64,000 nucleotides of DNA from Phycisphaeraceae bacterium (GTDB lineage: Bacteria > Planctomycetota > Phycisphaerae > Phycisphaerales > UBA1924), in NCBI GenBank assembly GCA_007693965.1, contig RECQ01000036.1, positions 1-64,000 on the forward strand, given 5' to 3'. Position 1 is the first letter of the stretch. The number at the start of each line of letters is the position of its first letter. Of this stretch, positions 1 through 46,827 are shown piece after piece. The notes beneath the pieces were generated by a model. It did not search any database and was not told where the DNA came from. It saw only the letters and a list, made by a program, of their open reading frames with translations. The translations under genes and the position numbers were made by a program.

Positions 1-1
1 G

Positions 2-517
2 CAGGAGGGCACCTACCCGCTCCCCGAGGCCCAGCTCGACCGCTTCATGATGAAGCTGAACGTGGGCTACTCGAAGCTCGACGAGCTGCTGACGATCGTG
101 GACAGAACCACCGGCGCGAAGACGCCCGCCGTCTCGCCGCAGATCGACGGCCCCGGCATCCTCGCGGCCCAGGCGCTGGTGCGTCAGGCGGTGATCGCGC
201 CGCACGTGAAGGAATACGCCGCGAGGCTGGTGCTGGCGACGCATCCCGAGGGCGCCCACGCGCCGCAGGTGGTGAACCGCTACGTCCGTGTCGGCGCCAG
301 CCCGCGCGCCGCCCAGGCGCTGGTGCTGGGCGCCAAGGTGCGGGCCCTGTGCGACGGCCGCTACCACGCGTCGTTCGGCGATGTGCGCGAAATCGCCGCC
401 CCGGTCCTGCGGCATCGCCTGGTGCTCAACTTCGAGGCGGAAGCGGACCGGGTGGTGCAGGATACCGTCGTGCGCGAGATCCTGGAAATGACGCCGACTG
501 AGCCGGTGGGGGTTTGA
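2..517 (+). CDS. MoxR-family AAA+ ATPase, C-terminal part (5' truncated by window edge)
   Basis: The reading frame is open from base 2 and begins with QEGTYPLPEAQLDRF, the conserved stretch following the sensor-1 region in MoxR ATPases. The rest is the helical lid domain, ending at a TGA at 515-517. MoxR proteins are AAA+ ATPases thought to act as chaperones that activate metal-binding VWA proteins. The next conserved genes downstream are a DUF58 protein and a BatA-like VWA membrane protein, the usual partners of this family, so one operon is likely. The junction with the DUF58 gene is interrupted by a repeat-bounded insert (522-1141). The Walker A and B motifs lie outside the window, so catalytic competence cannot be judged. 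Confidence 0.93.
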   Translation, partial: QEGTYPLPEAQLDRFMMKLNVGYSKLDELLTIVDRTTGAKTPAVSPQIDGPGILAAQALVRQAVIAPHVKEYAARLVLATHPEGAHAPQVVNRYVRVGASPRAAQALVLGAKVRALCDGRYHASFGDVREIAAPVLRHRLVLNFEAEADRVVQDTVVREILEMTPTEPVGV

Positions 518-521
518 AGAG

Positions 522-1141
522 TGAACTCAGAGGGCTCAGAGCGGCGCGGAGGGGATAACGCGGAGTGAGACGGAGTTTTTGAGTGAGACGGAGTTGGGAT
601 CTTGTGTGCTTTGGAGCGGACGCATGAAGACTGATTCACGGCACGATGGACGCGGGCGCCGGCCATTCTTCGAATTGCCCTCGGCGTGGGAAGCGCTCAC
701 CGGGAACGTCATCGGGGCGGCGATGGATGTGCATACAGCGCTCGGCCCCGGGCTTCTTGAGCGTCTGTACGAGGACGCCATGGCGCACGAGCTGGGCCTG
801 CGCGGCATCTCGTTCCAACGTCAGCTCGACGTCGTCATCCCCTACAAGTCGATCCAGCTCCGCGGCCAGCGTATCGATCTGATCGTGGAGAACCTCGTGG
901 TCGTGGAGCTGAAAGCCGTCGACGCCGTCGCAGACACCCACCTCGCCCAGCTCGTCAGCTTCATGCGCGCCTCAAACACACCGCTGGGCCTGCTCATCAA
1001 TTTCAACGTCGCAAGCCTTAAGAACGGCATCTACCGCCGCATCAACGAACGCGCCTTCCCGCCAGAAATCAGAATCCCGAAGTCCTTCACAACCCAACCC
1101 TTCTGACTCCGTCTCACTCCAAAACTCCGTCTCACTCCGCG
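522..1141. mobile_element. Repeat-bounded cassette carrying a GxxExxY gene
   Basis: A 36-bp arm at 559-594 and its reverse complement at 1106-1141 match at 35 of 36 positions and bracket one gene. Each arm is itself a tandem duplication of a unit containing GAGTGAGACGGAG. The left side also carries a second repeat (522-554) that recurs inverted at 2306-2338 with one mismatch in 33. The right arm begins inside the stop codon of the gene, and the cassette ends 22 bp before the DUF58 start codon. It sits between moxR and DUF58, genes normally adjacent. No target-site duplication is obvious. Calling it mobile is an inference from structure and position; no transposase is present. Confidence 0.6.
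624..1106 (+). CDS. GxxExxY protein (PD-(D/E)XK-like fold)
   Basis: This 160-residue protein has the family signature G43-x2-E46-x2-Y49 in GLLERLY, and a nuclease-like core with D85 (RIDLIVEN) followed by E95-L-K97. These resemble the PD-(D/E)XK arrangement, so metal-dependent nuclease activity is possible but unproven for the family. I chose the ATG at 624 because GGAGCGGA lies just upstream. The frame extends back to a TTG at 579, but that start lies inside the left inverted repeat. The gene is alone inside a repeat-bounded cassette between moxR and DUF58. It has no evident functional link with them, and a selfish or repeat-associated role is a guess. Confidence 0.85.
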   Translation: MKTDSRHDGRGRRPFFELPSAWEALTGNVIGAAMDVHTALGPGLLERLYEDAMAHELGLRGISFQRQLDVVIPYKSIQLRGQRIDLIVENLVVVELKAVDAVADTHLAQLVSFMRASNTPLGLLINFNVASLKNGIYRRINERAFPPEIRIPKSFTTQPF

Positions 1142-1163
1142 TTCCTTTCCCTGGCATTACCAA

Positions 1164-2144
1164 ATGCTCAAGACAACCACGACAACCCGCCCCCGCACGC
1201 TCGATGAACTGCTCGATCCGCGTCTGGTCTCGCGGCTGACGCAGCTCGATGTCTCCTCGCGCAAGGTCTTTGCGGGCAAGCTCAAGGGCGAGCGCCGCTC
1301 CAAGAAGCGCGGCGAGAGCGTCGAGTTCGCCGACCATCGGCCCTACGTCGTCGGCGACGATCTCCGCCACATCGACTGGAACATCTTCGGACGCCTCGAC
1401 CGGCTCTTCATCAAGCTCTTCCTCGAAGAAGAAGACCTCTCGCTGCACATCGTGCTCGACGCCTCCGCCTCGATGGACTGCGGCGAGCCTTCCAAATTCC
1501 TCTACGCACAGCGGCTCACGGCGGCGCTGGCGTACATCGGCCTTGTAAACCTCAACCGCGTGACGCTCACAGCGCTGGGCGCTGCTGCGGGCGGCGCGGG
1601 CGGCGATGGGGGTTCCGAGGGCGATGGCGGCCCGCCGCGCCCGGCGCCTGTGAGCGAGTCGGTCATCCGCAACCTCCGCGGCCGGCGGCGCGTGCACGAC
1701 ATGGGTCGCTGGCTCTGCTCGCTCACACCCGGCGCCGGCGCCGACTTCACCGAGGCCGCCAAGCGCATCGCACTCACCCGCACCGGCAAGGGCGTGATGA
1801 TCGTCATCAGCGATTTCTTCCTCAAGGAAGGGTACGAGCAGGGCCTGCGCTACCTGCTCGGCCGCGGCTACGACGTCTTCGCAATCCAGACGCTCAGCCC
1901 GCAGGAGATCGAGCCGTCGCTCGGGGGCGATCTGCGCCTGAAGGACATCGAAGACGGCGACCTCGCCGAAGTCACCATCAGCTCGGCGCTGCTGAAGCGC
2001 TACAAGGCCAACCTCAGCGCCTACTGCGACGAGCTCCGCGCCTTCTGCGCCCGGCGCGAGATCACACACATCACCGTCCAGACCGACACACCAGTGGACA
2101 CACTGGTCTTCGAATACCTGCGATCGAGGGGGCTGTTGCGATGA
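1164..2144 (+). CDS. DUF58 domain protein (VWA-like MoxR partner)
   Basis: The 326-residue protein contains the DUF58 hallmark around residues 43-85 (GERRSKKRGESVEFADHRPY, then GDDLRHIDWN and FGRLDRLFIKLF) followed by a VWA-like MIDAS motif D99-A-S-A-S-M. DUF58 proteins are encoded with MoxR ATPases and BatA-type proteins and are presumed clients or partners of the chaperone. A glycine-rich low-complexity insert lies at about residues 146-172. There is no transmembrane segment, so it is probably cytoplasmic. No clear Shine-Dalgarno precedes the ATG, and the right end of the GxxExxY cassette lies 22 bp upstream, so the native leader may have been displaced. Its stop overlaps an ATG at 2141 that opens a doubtful 73-codon frame. 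Confidence 0.93.
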   Translation: MLKTTTTTRPRTLDELLDPRLVSRLTQLDVSSRKVFAGKLKGERRSKKRGESVEFADHRPYVVGDDLRHIDWNIFGRLDRLFIKLFLEEEDLSLHIVLDASASMDCGEPSKFLYAQRLTAALAYIGLVNLNRVTLTALGAAAGGAGGDGGSEGDGGPPRPAPVSESVIRNLRGRRRVHDMGRWLCSLTPGAGADFTEAAKRIALTRTGKGVMIVISDFFLKEGYEQGLRYLLGRGYDVFAIQTLSPQEIEPSLGGDLRLKDIEDGDLAEVTISSALLKRYKANLSAYCDELRAFCARREITHITVQTDTPVDTLVFEYLRSRGLLR

Positions 2145-2150
2145 GAGCGA

Positions 2151-2341
2151 TTGAACACAGAGTGCGCGGAGGCGCGCAGAGAGGGAATTGGAATGGCATC
2201 ATGTGTGATGCGAACCGATTCGAAATTTCAACCGCATGCATTGCGATCGTTGCAACTGGCGCCCAGGCGCCGACGGCCTTCCGACTCCCACTGAACACAA
2301 TCTCCCCCCTCCGCGCCTCTCTGAGCCCTCTGAGTTCATCC
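2151..2341. repeat. Element with imperfect inverted ends between DUF58 and batA
   Basis: The 214-bp gap between two normally adjacent genes begins with TTGAACACAGAGTGCGCGG and ends with the reverse complement of a similar word, GAACTCAGAGGGCTCAGAG. The right end (2306-2338, read on the minus strand) matches 522-554 at 32 of 33 positions, so the same repeat family flanks both inserts in this cluster. A 73-codon frame (2141-2362) runs through it but has no recognisable protein features. It may be a non-autonomous relative of the GxxExxY cassette; that is an inference. Confidence 0.5.
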
Positions 2342-2358
2342 CCCCGAACGAGTGAAGC

Positions 2359-4401
2359 ATGACCTGGCTCTCTCCCATCCTGGCCGGCGCCGCAGCAGCG
2401 ATCGCGATCCCTGCGCTGCTCATTCTCTACTTCCTCAAGCTGCGCCGGCGCGACATCGAGGTCTCGACGACGCTGCTGTGGCAGAAGTCGATCCAGGATC
2501 TCCAGGCCAACGCGCCCTTCCAGAAGCTGCGCCGGAACATTCTGCTGCTGCTCCAGCTCCTCGTGCTTGCAGCGGCGATCCTGGCGCTGGCCCAGCCCGA
2601 GATCGATATGGGCGTCGGCGATGGGCAGCGGTTCGTGCTGCTGATCGACCGCTCCGCCAGCATGTCCGCGCGCGACGAGACGGACAGCCGCGGCAATCCC
2701 GTCACGCGGCTCGAGAAGGCGAAGCAGGAGGCGATCCGCTTCGTGGACACCATGCGCGAGCCCGGCCTCTTCGCGCGCGACCGGCGCGATGAGGCCATGA
2801 TCATCGCCTTCGACACCGGCGCCGAGGTGGTGCAGACGTTCACGGGCGACAAGCGCCGGCTTCGCACCGTGATCGAATCGATCGAGCCGACCGACGCCCC
2901 TGCGCGGTTTGAGGAGGCCGCCCGGCTGGCAGGGGCGCACGCCGTCACCGTCTTCATGGAAGCGGTGGGGCTTGTCACCGAAGCGGGCGACCCGATGTAC
3001 ATCTGGTCCGATGGAGGCTTCCCGGATGCTGATCGTGTGAGCGTCGATCCCTCGACGCCGGTGCACTACCGCTCCGTCGGCGCAGCCGATTCGGTGAACT
3101 TCGGCGTCACTGCGTTTCATGCGGAGCGCGCCTTCGATGCGCCGGAGCGCGTCTCGGTCTTTGTCGGCGTTCAGCGAGTCGGCGCTGCAGGCGGGGGCGG
3201 CGAGGTCGATGTCGAGTTCGCGGTCGACGGACTGGTCAGCGCTGTGCGCACGGTCCGTTTCCCCGAGACGGGCTCCGATGCGCCCGCGTCCGAGATCGAG
3301 GCGCCGCGGCCGTCCGGCGTCGTATTCCGCCTTGACCGGCTCGAGGCCGCGACGCTGCGTGTGCGGCTGCTGGGACAGGATGCGTTGGCGTCGGACGACA
3401 CCGCGTGGCTGCTTCTGCCTCCGGCGCGCCGGCTGTCCGCGCTGTATGTCGCCGAGCGCGAGTCGATGCTGCTCGAAGCCGTCGAGGCCCAGGAGTTGTC
3501 GCGGCTGGTCTCGGCGTCGCCGCAGCAGTTCCAGCGCATGGCCGATGATGGCCGGCTGGCTGAATTCGATGTCATCATCCTCGACGACTGGGCGCCGCAG
3601 ACAGCGCTGCCCCGGGGCCGCTATCTGATCTTCGGCGCCGAAGCGCAGGGATTGAGGGGCCTTGAAGGGATGGGCGAGCGGGTTGAAGATCCCCGAATCG
3701 TGATCGACTGGCGGCGTGATCACCCCGCTCTCCGCGGCGTGAGCTTTGACAATCTCTACATCGCGTCGTCATCCACACTGCAGCTCGGCGAAAGCGCCGT
3801 AACACTCGCCGAGTCGGATCGGGGGCCGGCGATCGTCGAAGTGGGCGACTCGGGCGCGCGGGCCATCGTGACCAATTTCGCTGTGTTGGACACGAACTGG
3901 ATCTGGGATCACAACCTCGTCATATTTCTCGGCACGGCAATTCGTCATCTGGCGGGAGACGGCGCCGCATTTGCGCATGAGCGGCTGACTCCCGGCGCTG
4001 TCCTCAGCACGCGACTTCCGCCCGGCGCAAGCGATGTCGAACTCACGCTCCCCGGCGCCGAGCGCATCAGCCTGACGCCGAGCGCGGACGGACTGGTGAA
4101 TTACGGCCCCATCCGGCGCATCGGCCTGCACCGGTTGCGCTGGACGGGCGTCCCCGGAGAGGCGGATCAGGTCGTCGATGGTCGCCCGCAGCGAACGATG
4201 GCCGCGAATCTGCTTGACCCCTATGAGTCTGACATCCGCCCCGTCGAGCGGCTTGAGCTGGCGACGCGCGACATCGAGTCGGCGCCGGGCGAGGCCGGCC
4301 CGGCGCTGGCGGCCCGCAGCCTGTGGCCGTGGCTCATACTCGCGGCGCTGGGCGTGATCCTGCTGGAGTGGTTCGTTTACAACCGCAAGGTGCATGTGTA
4401 G
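2359..4401 (+). CDS. BatA-like VWA-domain membrane protein
   Basis: The 680-residue protein starts with the BatA-type N-terminal module: a membrane segment at about 5-26, the basic KLRRRDIEVSTTLLW stretch, and a second membrane segment at about 59-79. A VWA domain follows from about 91, with the MIDAS motif D97-R-S-A-S in FVLLIDRSASM. The C-terminus has a third hydrophobic segment (LWPWLILAALGVILLEW) and a short basic tail. Family members are membrane-anchored metal-dependent adhesion-domain proteins in MoxR operons, linked to envelope stress or aerotolerance, but the molecular role is not established. It is the third gene of the moxR-DUF58 group. The middle part (about 230-650) is less conserved and resembles the ligand-binding and glutamine-amidotransferase-like regions common in planctomycete homologues. 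Confidence 0.9.
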   Translation: MTWLSPILAGAAAAIAIPALLILYFLKLRRRDIEVSTTLLWQKSIQDLQANAPFQKLRRNILLLLQLLVLAAAILALAQPEIDMGVGDGQRFVLLIDRSASMSARDETDSRGNPVTRLEKAKQEAIRFVDTMREPGLFARDRRDEAMIIAFDTGAEVVQTFTGDKRRLRTVIESIEPTDAPARFEEAARLAGAHAVTVFMEAVGLVTEAGDPMYIWSDGGFPDADRVSVDPSTPVHYRSVGAADSVNFGVTAFHAERAFDAPERVSVFVGVQRVGAAGGGGEVDVEFAVDGLVSAVRTVRFPETGSDAPASEIEAPRPSGVVFRLDRLEAATLRVRLLGQDALASDDTAWLLLPPARRLSALYVAERESMLLEAVEAQELSRLVSASPQQFQRMADDGRLAEFDVIILDDWAPQTALPRGRYLIFGAEAQGLRGLEGMGERVEDPRIVIDWRRDHPALRGVSFDNLYIASSSTLQLGESAVTLAESDRGPAIVEVGDSGARAIVTNFAVLDTNWIWDHNLVIFLGTAIRHLAGDGAAFAHERLTPGAVLSTRLPPGASDVELTLPGAERISLTPSADGLVNYGPIRRIGLHRLRWTGVPGEADQVVDGRPQRTMAANLLDPYESDIRPVERLELATRDIESAPGEAGPALAARSLWPWLILAALGVILLEWFVYNRKVHV

Positions 4402-24525: not shown

Positions 24526-25809
24526 TCAGTCCGCCATCGCCGCGGGCGCTGTCAGCTCCAGCATCCGATCCAGCGCGACCGTGGCCCACTTCCGCGCTTC
24601 GGGATGCACCTGCACGCGGTTGACGACCTTGCCCTTCGCCAGGTTGTCGAGCACCCACAGCAGGTGGGGCTCGTCGATGCGGTACATCGTCGTGCACAGG
24701 CACTGGCAGTCGCTGAGAATGCGCACGTGCACGCCCCGCTCCTTCGCGGCCTTCGCCAGGCGGTTCACCAGGTGGATCTCGGTGCCCACCACCCAGCGCG
24801 AGCCGGGCCTGGCGCCCTCGATCGCCCTGATGATGTACTCGGTCGAGCCGTTCAGATCACTCTTGTCCACCACTTCCTTGCAGCACTCGGGGTGGACGAG
24901 GATGGTCGCCTCGGGGTCGTTCTCGCGCACCTCGTCGCAGTGTTCGGGGCGGAAGAGCTTGTGGACCGAGCAGTGGCCGGCCCAGAGGATGACGCTGGAA
25001 TCGCGGAGCTGCTCGGGCGTCGCGCCGCCGAGCGGCTCGCCGCGGTGGGTGGCCTTGGGGTCGTACACCACCGTCTGCGTGCGCACGTCGTATCCATACG
25101 CCGCGGCGGTGTTGCGCCCGAGGTGCTGGTCGGGCATGAAGAGGAGTTTGATGTCTTCGGGGGGAGTACCGAGTTCCGAGTTCCGAGTTCCGAGCCGGGA
25201 ATGAACGAGAGAGCTCTGCGGCTCGCGACTCTGGACTCGGAACTCGGTACTCGGTACTCGGAACTCTTCTCCACCTCCTCCCGCCATCGCCCACTCGAAG
25301 ACGCGCATCGCGTTGCTGGATGTGCACACCGCCCCGCCGCGTTCGCCGACGAAGGCCTTGATGGCGGCGGACGAGTTCATGTAGGTGATGGGTATGATCC
25401 TGCCGCGCCAGCCCTGCTCTGCAAGCGATTCGTGCATCGCGTCCCAGGCGTCGCACACATCGTCGTACGTCGCCATGTCCGCCATCGAGCAGCCGGCCGA
25501 CAGGTCGGGCAGGATGACGCTCACATCGTCGGGCGTGAGGATGTCGGCGGACTCGGCCATGAAGTGCACGCCGCAGAAAATGACGCGCTTCGCCCCGCGC
25601 TCCTCGACGCGCTCGGCGGCGAGCTGGGAGAGCTTGAACGAGTCGCCGGTGAAATCGGCGTGGCGGATGACCTCGTCGGTCTGGTAGTGGTGGCCGAGGA
25701 TGATGAGCGAATCGCCCAGCTCGCGTCGGCGCGCATCGATGGCGGCGCCCAGTTCATCGGGCGTCATCTCGAGGTATCGCTCAGGAAGTTGGGGCTGCCA
25801 GAAGTGCAT
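24526..25809 (-). CDS. nadA: Quinolinate synthase NadA with in-frame repeat insertion
   Basis: NadA condenses iminoaspartate with dihydroxyacetone phosphate to quinolinate in NAD biosynthesis, using a [4Fe-4S] cluster. The 427-residue protein keeps the cluster cysteines C79 (FCGVHFMAES), C162 (AVCTSSNAM) and C309/C310 (HPECCKEV), the ILGHHYQ motif and MPDQHLGRN. Between the WAMA and LLFMPDQHL segments, residues about 181-216 (EEFRVPSTEFRVQSRE and onward) are foreign to the family and are encoded by a palindromic element at 25164-25266. Frame is kept, and every recognised motif is intact, so the protein is probably functional with a surface loop. The start has AGAGGA about 11 bases upstream. 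No nadB or nadC is adjacent. Confidence 0.93.
   Translation of the reverse strand: MHFWQPQLPERYLEMTPDELGAAIDARRRELGDSLIILGHHYQTDEVIRHADFTGDSFKLSQLAAERVEERGAKRVIFCGVHFMAESADILTPDDVSVILPDLSAGCSMADMATYDDVCDAWDAMHESLAEQGWRGRIIPITYMNSSAAIKAFVGERGGAVCTSSNAMRVFEWAMAGGGGEEFRVPSTEFRVQSREPQSSLVHSRLGTRNSELGTPPEDIKLLFMPDQHLGRNTAAAYGYDVRTQTVVYDPKATHRGEPLGGATPEQLRDSSVILWAGHCSVHKLFRPEHCDEVRENDPEATILVHPECCKEVVDKSDLNGSTEYIIRAIEGARPGSRWVVGTEIHLVNRLAKAAKERGVHVRILSDCQCLCTTMYRIDEPHLLWVLDNLAKGKVVNRVQVHPEARKWATVALDRMLELTAPAAMAD
25164..25266. repeat. In-frame palindromic element inside nadA
   Basis: The left arm (25164-25194) is GAGTACCGAG followed by repeats of TTCCGAG. The right arm (25233-25266) is its imperfect inverse, built of CTCGGAA and CTCGGTA words. 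About 38 bp separate the arms. The element adds about 36 codons to nadA without a stop or frameshift. The size and behaviour resemble Rickettsia palindromic elements, although the sequence is unrelated as far as I can tell. Confidence 0.8.
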
Positions 25810-35474: not shown

Positions 35475-35590
35475 GAAGAAACAACAAAGCGGGACAGCAG
35501 CAAAACAGCAAAGATATTGATGGGTCGCCCGACGTTGGACAGAAGACCGATTTGCTGCTTCCACGCTTTGCTGTTTGCTGTTTTCCCATC
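35475..35590 (+). repeat. AGCAAAGC-type dispersed element, copy A
   Basis: The stretch between the PP2C and M14 genes has ACAAAGC/CAGCAAA words at its left end and their inverse (TTTGCTGCTTCCACGCTTTG, TTGCTGTTTTCC) at its right end. CGATTTGCTGCTTYCACGCT is nearly identical to copy D (46585-46703). It carries no ORF. The M14 start codon lies 27 bp beyond. Confidence 0.7.
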
Positions 35591-41944: not shown

Positions 41945-42062
41945 TGGAAAACAGCAAAGCATCAAAGCAGCAAAGCAGCAAATCGGACTGCGTGTCCATC
42001 GTTCGTGGGCAAGACCAAAGCCTGTGCTGCATTGCGGCTTACCCGCTTTGCCGCATTTCCTG
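41938..42062 (-). repeat. AGCAAAGC-type dispersed element, copy B
   Basis: On the minus strand this stretch is close to copy D, sharing GGCTTTGxxCTxGCCCACGA and TCCGATTTGCTGCTTT. It spans the 3' end of tsaD and the leader of the release-factor-like gene. The last eight or so codons of tsaD (to the stop at 42039-42041) lie inside it, so the element supplies that gene's C-terminus. Confidence 0.7.
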
Positions 42063-43157
42063 CACACTGCTCGGCATGGCGCGGAGCGACTGATCATCGA
42101 CCCGACCCGCCAGCAGCAGCGCGTGCCCCAGCCCGGCGATCATGGCGGCGTTGTCGAGGCAATAGGGCATCTTGGGCAGGCGCAGGTCGAGGCCGCGTTG
42201 ATCCGCGAACTCCGTCAGCTCGCGGCGCAGACGCGAATTCGCGCTGACGCCGCCGCCGATCAGGAGCGTGCGGCAGGGGTGGCGCTCAAAGGTACGCTCC
42301 AGTTTCAGCATCACAGCCCGAACAGCCGCCCGCTGAAACGACGCGGCGACATCCGCCTTCTGCTGTTCACTCAGGTCGTGGTGATCGCGCTCGAACCTGG
42401 TGGCGCGCCTCTCCGAGCCGTGTCTTTCCTGGCCTGAAGCGCCCTGTGCATCACGACTCGGAGAGCTGCGCCACCGTTGCGGCACGCCGCGAACCGCGTA
42501 GAGCACCGCGGTTTTGAGCCCACTGAAGGACAGATCAAGCGAATCGGGCGCGATGCGGCTGACGGGAAACTCGTGGACCTGCTCATCGCCCTGCTGCGCC
42601 AGCCTGTCCAGCTTCGGACCGCCGGGAAACTCCAGACCGAGGATGGTGGCGACCTTGTCATAGGCCTCGCCCACGGCGTCATCAATCGTCGATCCGATGC
42701 GCCGGATGTCGAGGATAGAGTCGCAGGTGTAGAGGCTCGTGTGCCCGCCGCTGACGACCAGCCCGAGCGCGGGAAACGCCGGCGCCTCGCGCTCCAGCAG
42801 ACCGGCGTAGAGGTGCGCATGCACATGGTCGACGCCGACGAGCGGCCTGCCCAGCGACCACGAAAGCGCCTTGGCCGCGGCGACGCCGACGACCAGCGAT
42901 CCGATCAGCCCCGGACGCGACCCCACCGCGACCGCATCAATCTCACCCAGCCCGACGCCCGCATCCGCCAGCGCCCGGCGCAGCACCGGCAGCATCCGCT
43001 CGACATGGGCCCGACTGGCGATCTCCGGCACCACGCCGCCGTACTCGACGTGCAGCTCATCCTGCGAAGCGATGACGTTGCAGAGCACATCCCGCCCGTC
43101 GCGAACCACCGCGGCGGCCGTCTCATCGCAGCTTGATTCGATGCCGAGGAGGAGCAT
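42039..43157 (-). CDS. tsaD: tRNA N6-threonylcarbamoyladenosine synthase subunit TsaD with in-frame insertion
   Basis: TsaD transfers threonylcarbamoyl to A37 of ANN-reading tRNAs. The 372-residue protein has the ASKHA fold motifs: GIESSCDETAAAVV, the metal-binding HVHAHLYAG, SGGHTSLY, FSGLKTAVLY, and LLIGGGVSANSRLR plus the late D-N region (YCLDNAAMIAGLG). Compared with the usual 337 or so residues, about 34 extra residues lie at about 225-258, between AVRG and LSEQQKAD. They are coded by an element with inverted arms (42399-42475), which read SRDAQGASGQERHGSERRAT. The frame is kept and catalytic motifs are intact. The C-terminal eight or so residues come from a different repeat. Starts at ATG 43157. 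Confidence 0.94.
   Translation of the reverse strand: MLLLGIESSCDETAAAVVRDGRDVLCNVIASQDELHVEYGGVVPEIASRAHVERMLPVLRRALADAGVGLGEIDAVAVGSRPGLIGSLVVGVAAAKALSWSLGRPLVGVDHVHAHLYAGLLEREAPAFPALGLVVSGGHTSLYTCDSILDIRRIGSTIDDAVGEAYDKVATILGLEFPGGPKLDRLAQQGDEQVHEFPVSRIAPDSLDLSFSGLKTAVLYAVRGVPQRWRSSPSRDAQGASGQERHGSERRATRFERDHHDLSEQQKADVAASFQRAAVRAVMLKLERTFERHPCRTLLIGGGVSANSRLRRELTEFADQRGLDLRLPKMPYCLDNAAMIAGLGHALLLAGRVDDQSLRAMPSSVQEMRQSG
42399..42475. repeat. In-frame GGCTCTCYGAGCC element with inverted arms inside tsaD
   Basis: The arms 42399-42422 and 42452-42475 are inverted copies matching at 21 of 24 positions, each with the word GGTGGCGCxxCTCTCCGAGY. They are separated by 29 bp. Together with bases outside the arms the element adds about 34 codons to tsaD. 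The sense-oriented arm is translated as HGSERRAT, the same frame as NGSESRST elsewhere. Confidence 0.75.
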
Positions 43158-43324
43158 GGGAAAAGCGGAAAAACGGGAAAACGGGAAAACGGGAAATCAG
43201 CAAAGGGTGGTCAGGCACAACCTCTGGACTGATCATGTACTGCCTGGATGCGACTCGCACCACAGGCACATCGTAGTTTCTTCCTCTTTGCTGCTTTGCT
43301 GCTGTTCCGCTTTGCTGATTTCAC
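43158..43324. repeat. AGCAAAGC-type dispersed element, copy C
   Basis: This fills the whole gap between tsaD and the S41 protease gene. It has AAAACGGGAAA repeats and ATCAGCAAAG at the left, and CTTTGCTGCTTTGCTG, then CCGCTTTGCTGATTTC at the right. The ends resemble copies A, B and D, but the interior differs, so it is the most diverged member. The S41 stop codon (43321-43323) lies in the element's last bases. Confidence 0.55.
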
Positions 43325-45215: not shown

Positions 45216-46586
45216 ATGGCACGAACCAAGGAACGCACGGACATCAAGGTCGCCTCTGAGAAGGCGGTGCTCGCGGCCGTCCATCTCCCCGACAGTCGCT
45301 TCGACGAGCGCGATCCTCTGGGCGAGCTGCGCTCGCTGGCCGAGACCGCTGGCGCGGTCGTGGTTGGCGAGCTGATCCAGAACCGGCAGCGCCCGGAGGC
45401 CGGCACATACATCGGCTCCGGCAAGCTCGACGAGTTGAAGGGCCTGTGCGACACCACCGGCGCCACGCTCATCGTCTTCGACCACGATCTCTCCCCGTCG
45501 CAGATCGGCAACATCGAGAAACACTGCGAACGCAAAGTCGTCGACCGCTCCGAGCTGATCCTCGACATCTTCGCCAGTCGCGCCACCACCCACGAAGCCA
45601 AGCTCCAGGTCGAACTGGCCCAGCTTGAATACACCTTCCCCCGCCTGCGGGCCATGTGGGACCACCTCGAGCGCATCGTCGGCGTCGGAGGCGTGATGGG
45701 CATCGGCGCCAGAGGCCCCGGCGAGCAGCAGCTCGAGATCGACCGGCGCATCGTCAAGCGCAAGCAGACGCAGCTCCGTCGCGAGTTGGAGGAAATCCAG
45801 AGCCGCAAGCGCCGCGAGGTCAGCCGGCGCCGGCGCGACCACTACACCGTCGGCCTCGTCGGCTACACCAACGCCGGCAAGTCCACACTCTTCAACACCC
45901 TCACCGCCGGCGGCGCCTATGCCGACGACCGCCTCTTCGCCACCCTCATGACCCGCACCCGCGAGTGGGACGTCGGTGGCGGCGCCGGCGTGATGCTCTC
46001 CGACACCGTCGGCTTCGTCCGCGACCTGCCGCACAACCTCATCGCGTCCTTCAAAGCGACCCTTGAAGAGACCACCCACGCCGACCTGCTGCTCATCGTG
46101 CTCGACGTCTCCGATCCGAGCGCCGAGATGCAGTACGAGACGGTGATGAAGACGCTGGACGAGATCTTCGAGGAAGTCGAAAAGTCTGAGCGCAAGGCCG
46201 GCGCCGCGTGGGAAGCGCCGGAGCGCCAGCTGCTGCTCAACAAGGTCGATCGCCTCCAGGACAACAAGGAAATCCTCTACTGGGTCGCGCGCTCCCCCGG
46301 CGCCATCCCCATCTGCGCCCGCGATCCCGAGGATGAGGGCCTGGAGACCCTGCGCCAACGGGTGCGTGAAAAGTCAATGGGCGATGTGCGCGAGCTGACG
46401 CTCATCACACCCATGGCCGACTCGAAAACGATCAACTCGCTGGAAAACCGATCCGAGGTGCTGGAGCGGAGCTATGACAACGGCGAAGCGCGGATCCGAG
46501 CCCGCATCGGCTCGCGCGTGCTGGACCAGCTCCGCGCAGGCGGGGCGAAGTTCGAGATCGAGCCCGCCGCGAGCGGGGGCATGTAG
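45216..46586 (+). CDS. hflX: GTPase HflX
   Basis: HflX is a ribosome-splitting translational GTPase that rescues stalled ribosomes. The 456-residue protein has the N-terminal HflX domain (GELIQNRQRPEAGTYIGSGK, then ELKGLCDTTGA and FDHDLSPSQ), the coiled-coil-linked segment GVMGIGARGPGEQQLEIDRR, and the GTPase G motifs GYTNAGKSTLFNTL, DTVGFVRDLPH and NKVDRL. A C-terminal extension ends at an ATG TAG where a repeat element begins. It starts at ATG 45216. Divergent from the S41 protease; downstream comes a repeat and the tRNA-Thr gene. Confidence 0.95.
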   Translation: MARTKERTDIKVASEKAVLAAVHLPDSRFDERDPLGELRSLAETAGAVVVGELIQNRQRPEAGTYIGSGKLDELKGLCDTTGATLIVFDHDLSPSQIGNIEKHCERKVVDRSELILDIFASRATTHEAKLQVELAQLEYTFPRLRAMWDHLERIVGVGGVMGIGARGPGEQQLEIDRRIVKRKQTQLRRELEEIQSRKRREVSRRRRDHYTVGLVGYTNAGKSTLFNTLTAGGAYADDRLFATLMTRTREWDVGGGAGVMLSDTVGFVRDLPHNLIASFKATLEETTHADLLLIVLDVSDPSAEMQYETVMKTLDEIFEEVEKSERKAGAAWEAPERQLLLNKVDRLQDNKEILYWVARSPGAIPICARDPEDEGLETLRQRVREKSMGDVRELTLITPMADSKTINSLENRSEVLERSYDNGEARIRARIGSRVLDQLRAGGAKFEIEPAASGGM

Positions 46587-46703
46587 AAAAGTAGCAAAGC
46601 GGAACAACAGCAAAGCAGCAAAGGCTTTGACCTCGCCCACGAATGGTGGGCACACCATCCGATTTGCTGCTTTCACGCTTTGCTGATTTGCTGCTTTTCC
46701 AAA
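46585..46703 (+). repeat. AGCAAAGC-type dispersed element, copy D
   Basis: The element begins within the hflX stop codon. It has AGCAAAGCGG and AGCAAAGCAGCAAAGG on the left and the inverse CGATTTGCTGCTTTCACGCT, TTGCTGATTTGCTGCTTTTC on the right. The core GGCTTTGACCTCGCCCACGA is near-identical to copy B read on its minus strand. No ORF is coded by it. Confidence 0.75.
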
Positions 46704-46827
46704 GCCCCACCGCCCCGCGTCCATGACCCGAGGCGACGGCCCCGCGGTCGGCGCCGCCCGTCCGGGGGCCCTCGTCCAGGGCCCGGCGCGGGTTTCCCGT
46801 CGTCCGGAGCGGAAACGGACGCGCCGA

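Follow-up and report, generated by a model that had tools for sequence, protein, structure and literature searches.

Inverted iteron arms around genes of the GxxExxY family and their dispersed gene-less relatives

Why does a small nuclease-like gene, framed by inverted repeats, lie between a moxR gene and a DUF58 gene? This question is raised by the first part of the window, by which we mean the whole stretch of 64,000 nt of Phycisphaeraceae DNA that was analysed. An original prediction, made from the sequence alone, described a GxxExxY gene between matching arms, one of which starts in its stop codon, and suggested that it is either a minimal mobile unit or a repeat-processing enzyme. The features of the locus are as follows.

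2..517, + strand: MoxR-type AAA gene, 3' part (PF17863), host flank
522..554, + strand: outer block of the left arm, with an inverted partner at 2306-2338 and dispersed copies in the genome
557..594, + strand: left inverted arm, pairing with 1106-1143
624..1106, + strand: GxxExxY gene, 160 aa, PD-(D/E)XK-type, with E46, D85, E95-x-K97 and Q109
1106..1143, - strand: right inverted arm, starting at the last base of the stop codon
1164..2144, + strand: DUF58 gene (PF01882), host flank
2152..2185, + strand: left arm of a gene-less element, score 18 with 2305-2338
2305..2338, - strand: right arm of the gene-less element, pairing with 2152-2185

The GxxExxY gene is intact, with an ATG at 624 and a TGA at 1104-1106. 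Its arms are 38 nt long, complementary at 37/38 positions (97%) and separated by 511 nt. The predicted arm pair therefore held, including the start of the right arm in the stop codon, but two things had been missed. First, the block at 522-554 has no partner adjoining the gene and pairs instead with a second inverted element (2152-2338), which contains no gene, lies between the DUF58 gene and a BatA/VWA gene, and has arms of the same family. Second, the window arms belong to a family that is dispersed in this genome. A promoter or terminator reading of the arms was rejected, as no promoter-like site was found in 450-2400 and the one terminator-like site there (2178-2163, minus strand; shuffle mean 1.3) is in the second element. 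This sole site falls inside the left arm of that element.

The window protein is a member of the GxxExxY family, as both profile scores exceed their curated cut-offs (PF13366: E 1.3e-36, 125.9 bits, cut-off 22; TIGR04256: E 1.6e-37, 128.4 bits, cut-off 35). PF13366 is its only Pfam match at E 0.001. No solved structure close in sequence was found, the one match having an E of 0.38. A structure model of the protein (pLDDT 89.2) was nearest to SSO0001, which we take to be a Cas4 (Z 8.9 over 101 residues at 3.4 A, the best VIA match). Chains of Hjc resolvases reached only Z 5.3-6.5, and a Z under 8 may reflect merely a common arrangement. The top Foldseek match was a Cas4 as well (E 5.9e-3), and no Foldseek match reached E 0.001. 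Residues E46, D85, E95-x-K97 and Q109-x3-Y are nearly invariant in the family outside a lineage without arms, discussed below; the window protein has F in place of Y in the last motif. The putative catalytic lysine, K97, is kept in 71/71, 8/8 and 79/80 rows outside that lineage. Thus, the window protein meets the criteria of the PD-(D/E)XK nuclease superfamily (the E, D and ExK residues together with the fold), the residues being conserved and the fold being predicted from a model. It shares the E...D...ExK...QxxxY layout and the fold with Cas4/RecB-type and Hjc-type nucleases. Cas4 proteins have conserved cysteines for an Fe-S cluster; the window protein has no cysteine in its 160 aa and so lacks a Cas4-type iron-sulphur site.

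Armed GxxExxY genes are under purifying selection, with dN/dS of 0.06-0.41 in six pairs, although dS was mostly above 1 in these pairs and so near saturation. Two readings of the gene were rejected. Its PADLOC defence matches were weak ones only (best Cas4, E 0.013), which does not support a defence system. Cargo of phages or plasmids is not supported either, as tblastn with the window protein (E 1e-5) matched 0/50,697 phage records and 8/72,556 plasmid records.

The layout of one small gene between inverted repeats is also that of the intervening sequences of 23S rRNA with their S23 genes. It could be argued that the unit is likewise an RNA-level element, whose arms act as an RNA stem that RNase III cuts and whose spread in DNA is a by-product. 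In favour of this, the terminal inverted repeats of an intervening sequence pair with each other around an S23 gene, and RNase III excises the sequence (PMC4990558). However, the GxxExxY protein has a nuclease fold, not that of S23, the iterons differ, and the unit is not in rRNA: no Rfam match was found in window positions 1-2600 up to E 0.1. Judging from sequence alone, we consider this explanation very unlikely.

Are the arms a peculiarity of this locus? In our flank test, the 250 nt upstream of a gene were compared with the reverse complement of the 250 nt downstream, a score of at least 17 was taken as positive, and control positions were obtained by a shift of 1000 bp within each locus. 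The source genome has three GxxExxY genes, two of which have inverted arms (scores 36 for the window gene and 34 for L001). The remaining one, on C70, has neither arms (score 12) nor the catalytic lysine. The family was present in 81/101 genomes searched, our own included. Among high-scoring loci from this genome and its relatives, 67 of 71 testable loci had arms, compared with 1/138 shifted controls, whose highest score was 17. This set was drawn from the top-scoring rows (30 returned loci, 40 further rows, and L001 and L002 of the source genome, 72 in all), and L071 was excluded because its flank was too short. Lower rows were left out. So were two or more high rows, of which one shares a piece with L088 and another (G090:C336) lies at a contig end.

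The arms were also found in named genomes across phyla, where 56/76 genes scored at least 17, compared with 7/261 controls; at a score of at least 20 the figures were 51/76 and 0/261. This sample consisted of 80 of 587 confirmed matches, less L150, L174, L180 and L225, whose flanks were too short. According to record titles, the scan included Proteobacteria, Planctomycetota, Acidobacteria, Chloroflexota, Verrucomicrobiota, Cyanobacteria and Bacteroidota; two of three archaeal loci had arms. Twenty of the 76 genes fell below the threshold. Bacteroidota were weak (5/14 with arms, 9/14 below threshold), and so were Ignavibacteria (arms in 1/3). These results show that the association of arms with GxxExxY genes is broad and is no local accident; local chance is rejected as their source by the shifted controls. 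The check that the original prediction had called for, namely whether other GxxExxY genes are also flanked by self-complementary repeats, was positive in the source genome, in its relatives and across phyla.

One lineage of the family lacks arms. It consists of L003, the C70-type gene, and L128-L147, 20 rows of about 83-98 bits that were selected for their score and their resemblance to L003, irrespective of arms. After L133 was dropped for a short flank, 0/20 testable members reached a score of 17, although shifted controls in these GC-rich loci did so in 4/40 cases, with scores up to 20. The lineage forms one side of a tree branch (99*). K97 is present in 0/21 of its rows, and the other active-site residues are kept unevenly (E46 in 8, D85 in 14, E95 in 15 and Q109 in 2). 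The lineage looks vertically inherited in place, because all members but L146 (19/20) have, by tblastx, one or more neighbours in common with L003. Its dN/dS was 0.12-0.19 in three pairs. It is likely that this lineage is a domesticated, non-catalytic form. As it represents one evolutionary event, it is suggestive as a negative control but is not a statistic.

These data bear on the possibility that the repeats are passive, that is, that template-switch correction of quasi-palindromes during replication matches the arms and the gene is a bystander. It is true that the inverted match extends past the iterons into flanking DNA in several loci (e.g. L068, L103 and L126), which template switching would produce. 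However, the shifted controls are, with few exceptions, free of such repeats (1/138 and 7/261), and the armless lineage (0/20) provides a negative control within the family. We regard this explanation as very unlikely.

What are the arms made of? By eye, an arm is mostly two to four iterons of 7-10 nt, and its outer end is frequently TTNACC or TTGAAC. The iterons are CRCRGAG and kin. Among units ending in GAG, AAG or GAT, the only ends that our pattern admits, the commonest are CACAGAG, CGCAGAG, CACGGAG and CGCGGAG, followed by CACAAAG, CACGAAG, CGCGAAG, CGCCAAG and CACAGAT. The window arms fit this pattern only partially. Units had a median length of 493 bp (10-90%, 450-576 bp; 67 units), and the right arm started a median of 6 nt past the stop codon, or ahead of the end of the stop codon in 22/67. 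The version of the arm varies among loci but is common to both sides of a locus: over 71 loci, the left-right match was 26.4 within a locus versus 12.3 between loci (0/10,000 permutations as high), and the arm's own partner was the best or tied best match in 44/71.

The iteron type also follows the tree of GxxExxY proteins. It required 9 changes on the tree, compared with a mean of 17.0 after shuffling (0/500 as low). The six GAT rows required one change, compared with 5.9 (0/500 as low), and the signal for AAG against GAG alone was weaker (8 changes compared with 11.1; 3/500 as low). The tree rests on 120 columns, 44/97 of its forks are open, and 28/100 rows carry no iteron label.

The arms are not confined to genes. 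The left arm of the window gene, searched as 79 nt, matched 59 places in the source genome, three of them inside the window, and one place in 11 other genomes of the family. Forty-six of the 59 form 23 opposite-strand pairs with 72-188 bp between them and 157-340 bp across, a span too short for the gene, so that these pairs are without it. All 20 places that we read were inside inverted elements of 169-322 bp; this reading had no control of its own, and the other 10 of the 30 loci were the window, G018 or second arms. Fifteen of the 20 elements are crossed by no open frame of at least 100 aa. We rejected the idea that their loops are remnants of the gene, as they match it over only 8-13 nt (best E 0.002). 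Within these elements, as around genes, the two arms resemble each other: the match was 34.5 within versus 28.1 between elements, and 28.4 versus 24.1 in fixed 45-nt windows (0/20,000 permutations in both cases).

Three arms in all were searched in 12 genomes each. The L001 arm had 9 matches at home, 11 in G006, one in G013 and none in nine genomes; the GxxExxY protein of G006 is the sister of the L001 protein (SH-aLRT 94). The G016 arm had 23 matches at home, one each in three genomes and none in eight. Thus, cognate gene-less copies are dispersed in the genome that holds the gene.

Do whole units move? We found one clean presence/absence difference. The L062 unit is present in G071 and also in G083, the genome closest to G071 in identity. 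Three congeners (G063, G067 and G079) lack it in the corresponding stop-to-start gap, where both neighbours are 77-84% identical. The empty site of G063 holds CCTCTGTGGTTGGAT, a single arm-end-like stretch, so that a target and a remnant cannot be told apart there. No target duplication could be defined at this sole clean empty site. The whole 3.35-kb L062 query had 38 matches in G071, 14 in G083, 6 in G067, 4 in G079 and 2 in G063, the extra ones being mostly short pieces at arms. A second candidate empty site (L079) lies in a diverged region and was not used as proof. Among nine compared pairs of similar proteins, four were at the same locus and five at different loci; in the latter, likeness ends within the unit and only the unit is shared.

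The moxR-DUF58 junction, in turn, is a place where the gene seems to have stayed. We could read the junction at all but one of the 30 best DUF58 loci, our own included (none was found for G033). A GxxExxY gene is present in 8/29, including the window. G034 holds a weak remnant (28 bits), and in G011 (L277) the gene has lost an internal part in frame, with both arms intact (score 31). The G011 deletion represents a possible route from a master gene to a gene-less element. Five genera (G012, G014, G022, G024 and G029) hold other sequence of 452-715 bp, so this junction may be a general insertion spot; the remaining gaps are two of 186 and 248 bp and 12 of 13-140 bp. The eight junction proteins required two changes on the tree, compared with a shuffled mean of 7.8 (0/500 as low), and a single clade of the eight was not rejected (p-AU 0.885). 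These results fit one old insertion followed by vertical inheritance, but do not prove it. Six of the eight genera have pairing arms (scores 23-36) and two do not (10 and 13). The observation that would have refuted the original prediction, relatives that keep the gene at the same locus without arms, was therefore mostly not made. The suggestion of a minimal mobile unit needs correction: here the gene appears to be an old resident, and most dispersed copies are gene-less.

At this same locus, the left arms of different genera are mostly unlike each other, whereas left and right arms still match. Over nine genera, the match was 26.1 within a locus versus 11.7 between genera (permutation p 1e-5). 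Three closer same-locus pairs (L085/L093, L107/L117 and L073/L083) showed no excess of within- over between-copy match, so that turnover is seen only over long distances. Over such distances, the sequence of the arms turns over and their pairing is kept. This suggests a concerted evolution of the arms, which is a puzzle of its own.

One explanation for matched arms is a homing-type nuclease that cuts gene-less or empty iteron sites, after which the gene is copied in by recombination. Recombination would also keep the arms matched, and gene-less copies would be internal deletions. This is supported by the deleted G011 copy, which has intact arms (score 31) at the same site, and by the arm-end-like stretch CCTCTGTGGTTGGAT at the empty site of G063. 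Against it, the loops of the 20 gene-less elements match the gene over just 8-13 nt, and full units occur also at unrelated loci. We consider it unlikely.

We have instead proposed a model in which a family of iteron-armed elements with inverted repeats has the gene and its arms as its 'master'. In this master-nuclease model, the GxxExxY protein would be a small PD-(D/E)XK nuclease with a RecB/Cas4-type QxxxY motif that recognises short iterons and cuts the paired arms (as hairpins or cruciforms) or the arm ends. Host replication and repair may then help the unit, and more often its gene-less copies, to reach new sites, the gene-less units being served in trans by the protein. Whole units would move at times, and some would settle and be inherited vertically, as may have happened at moxR-DUF58. 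Because an element would change the sequence of its arms without losing their complementarity, each lineage would obtain its own arm version and its own gene-less copies. Binding of iterons, cutting, and movement as a result of the cut are all inferred; biochemical evidence for binding or cleavage of the arms by the protein is lacking, and the repeat-processing enzyme of the original prediction remains an inference as well. Taken as a whole, we judge the model to be the best explanation available, with the balance of evidence modestly on its side. It provides a testable function for a common protein family that has none, and it proposes a source gene for CACAGAG-type repeats that are dispersed across genomes. 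Should the nuclease prove to be the mover, it would form a very small, single-protein system of DNA mobilisation that reads short iterons.

How does this model compare with known systems? The closest in lifestyle is REPIN-RAYT. There, a dispersed population of repeats is maintained by a transposase that is inherited vertically and present in single copy (PMC8049555); the repeats are REP palindromes with a GTAG-type tag. The likenesses are a repeat-flanked, nuclease-type gene that fits vertical inheritance (although this is not proven), cognate gene-less repeats dispersed in the same genome, as met here for three arms, and the lack of phage matches with only 8/72,556 plasmid records. There are also differences. 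RAYTs are tyrosine (HUH/Y1) transposases. The protein studied here is of PD-(D/E)XK type, and its sole Pfam match is PF13366; its arms are mostly tandem iterons, and whole units occur also at unrelated loci. As protein and repeats are unrelated, GxxExxY units are not members of REPIN-RAYT, though they would work alike. This suggests that the lifestyle of a resident nuclease with satellite repeats has arisen again from unrelated parts.

Insertion sequences and their MITE derivatives also have a gene between inverted repeats and shorter, same-ended copies without the gene. However, the window unit contains no DDE transposase, only the PF13366 gene; the arms are made of iterons, and no target duplication could be defined at the one clean empty site. 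The heptameric inverted repeats of Xanthomonas and Nostoc consist of short units repeated in tandem, which form convergent pairs between genes, and no general link to mobile elements was reported for them (PMC4692102). GxxExxY arms are likewise short tandem units in inverted pairs, but the heptamer GGGAATC resembles the arms of a gene for a four-helix-bundle protein (L323), not those of GxxExxY genes. We found no description of the GxxExxY-arm association in the literature searched, which included no preprints and few subscription papers, and the family is named there only in passing (cf. PMC8934634, PMC12085832). Within that literature, we regard as new the unit with a PD-(D/E)XK protein only, the iteron arms and their concerted turnover; the lifestyle itself is known from REPIN-RAYT. 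The recurrence of the units in many bacteria and some archaea leads us to lean, without certainty, towards an undescribed kind of tiny mobile DNA.

The main rival to the master-nuclease model comes from a second class of genes. Four-helix-bundle (PF05635, S23-type) genes in the source genome and its relatives (L052-L056 and L312-L340) have inverted iteron arrays at both sides, and 27/34 of these loci scored at least 17, compared with 0/65 controls. Their layout matches that of GxxExxY units although the iterons differ, so both classes might share a mover that acts in trans. It is possible that an unknown transposase or reverse transcriptase moves both iteron-armed classes, and that the small proteins are accessory, e.g. 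iteron-binding or hairpin-handling factors. The use of one gene-in-inverted-iterons layout by unrelated proteins (PF13366/TIGR04256 and PF05635) speaks for this. Against it, each class has its own iteron style, the GxxExxY iteron type follows the GxxExxY tree, and the catalytic lysine is lost in the armless lineage. We consider this rival rather unlikely, though less so than the others.

A bolder form of the master-nuclease model would include both classes. In this form, the units would be a new superfamily of prokaryotic mobile DNA, present in many bacterial phyla and in Methanosarcinales-type archaea. Its sole protein would be a PD-(D/E)XK nuclease with three roles: to recognise the short iterons of long inverted arms, to mobilise itself along with gene-less satellites, and to keep the arms matched during turnover; the S23-type genes with heptamer-like arms would be a second, parallel branch of the same lifestyle. 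If true, this would explain several orphan families of intergenic repeats. We are slightly inclined to doubt it.

Some further observations concern the four-helix-bundle iterons, which vary by locus (GGGCAATG, GAGTACC, GCGAGTC, CACGAGG and others). An inverted pair of GAGTACC/GAGTTCC units lies in the window at 25164-25259, and the same units are found in the arms of a four-helix-bundle gene of the source genome (L054, on C23). Further inverted arrays, of AGCAAAGC-type units, lie at 35479-35576, 41947-43322 and 46573-46713; this unit resembles the GCGGCAAA arms of the four-helix-bundle locus L340. Last, it is the left arm of L323 that holds GGGAATC, the inverted-pair heptamer of Xanthomonas (PMC4692102), and this gene is a possible source gene for such repeats.
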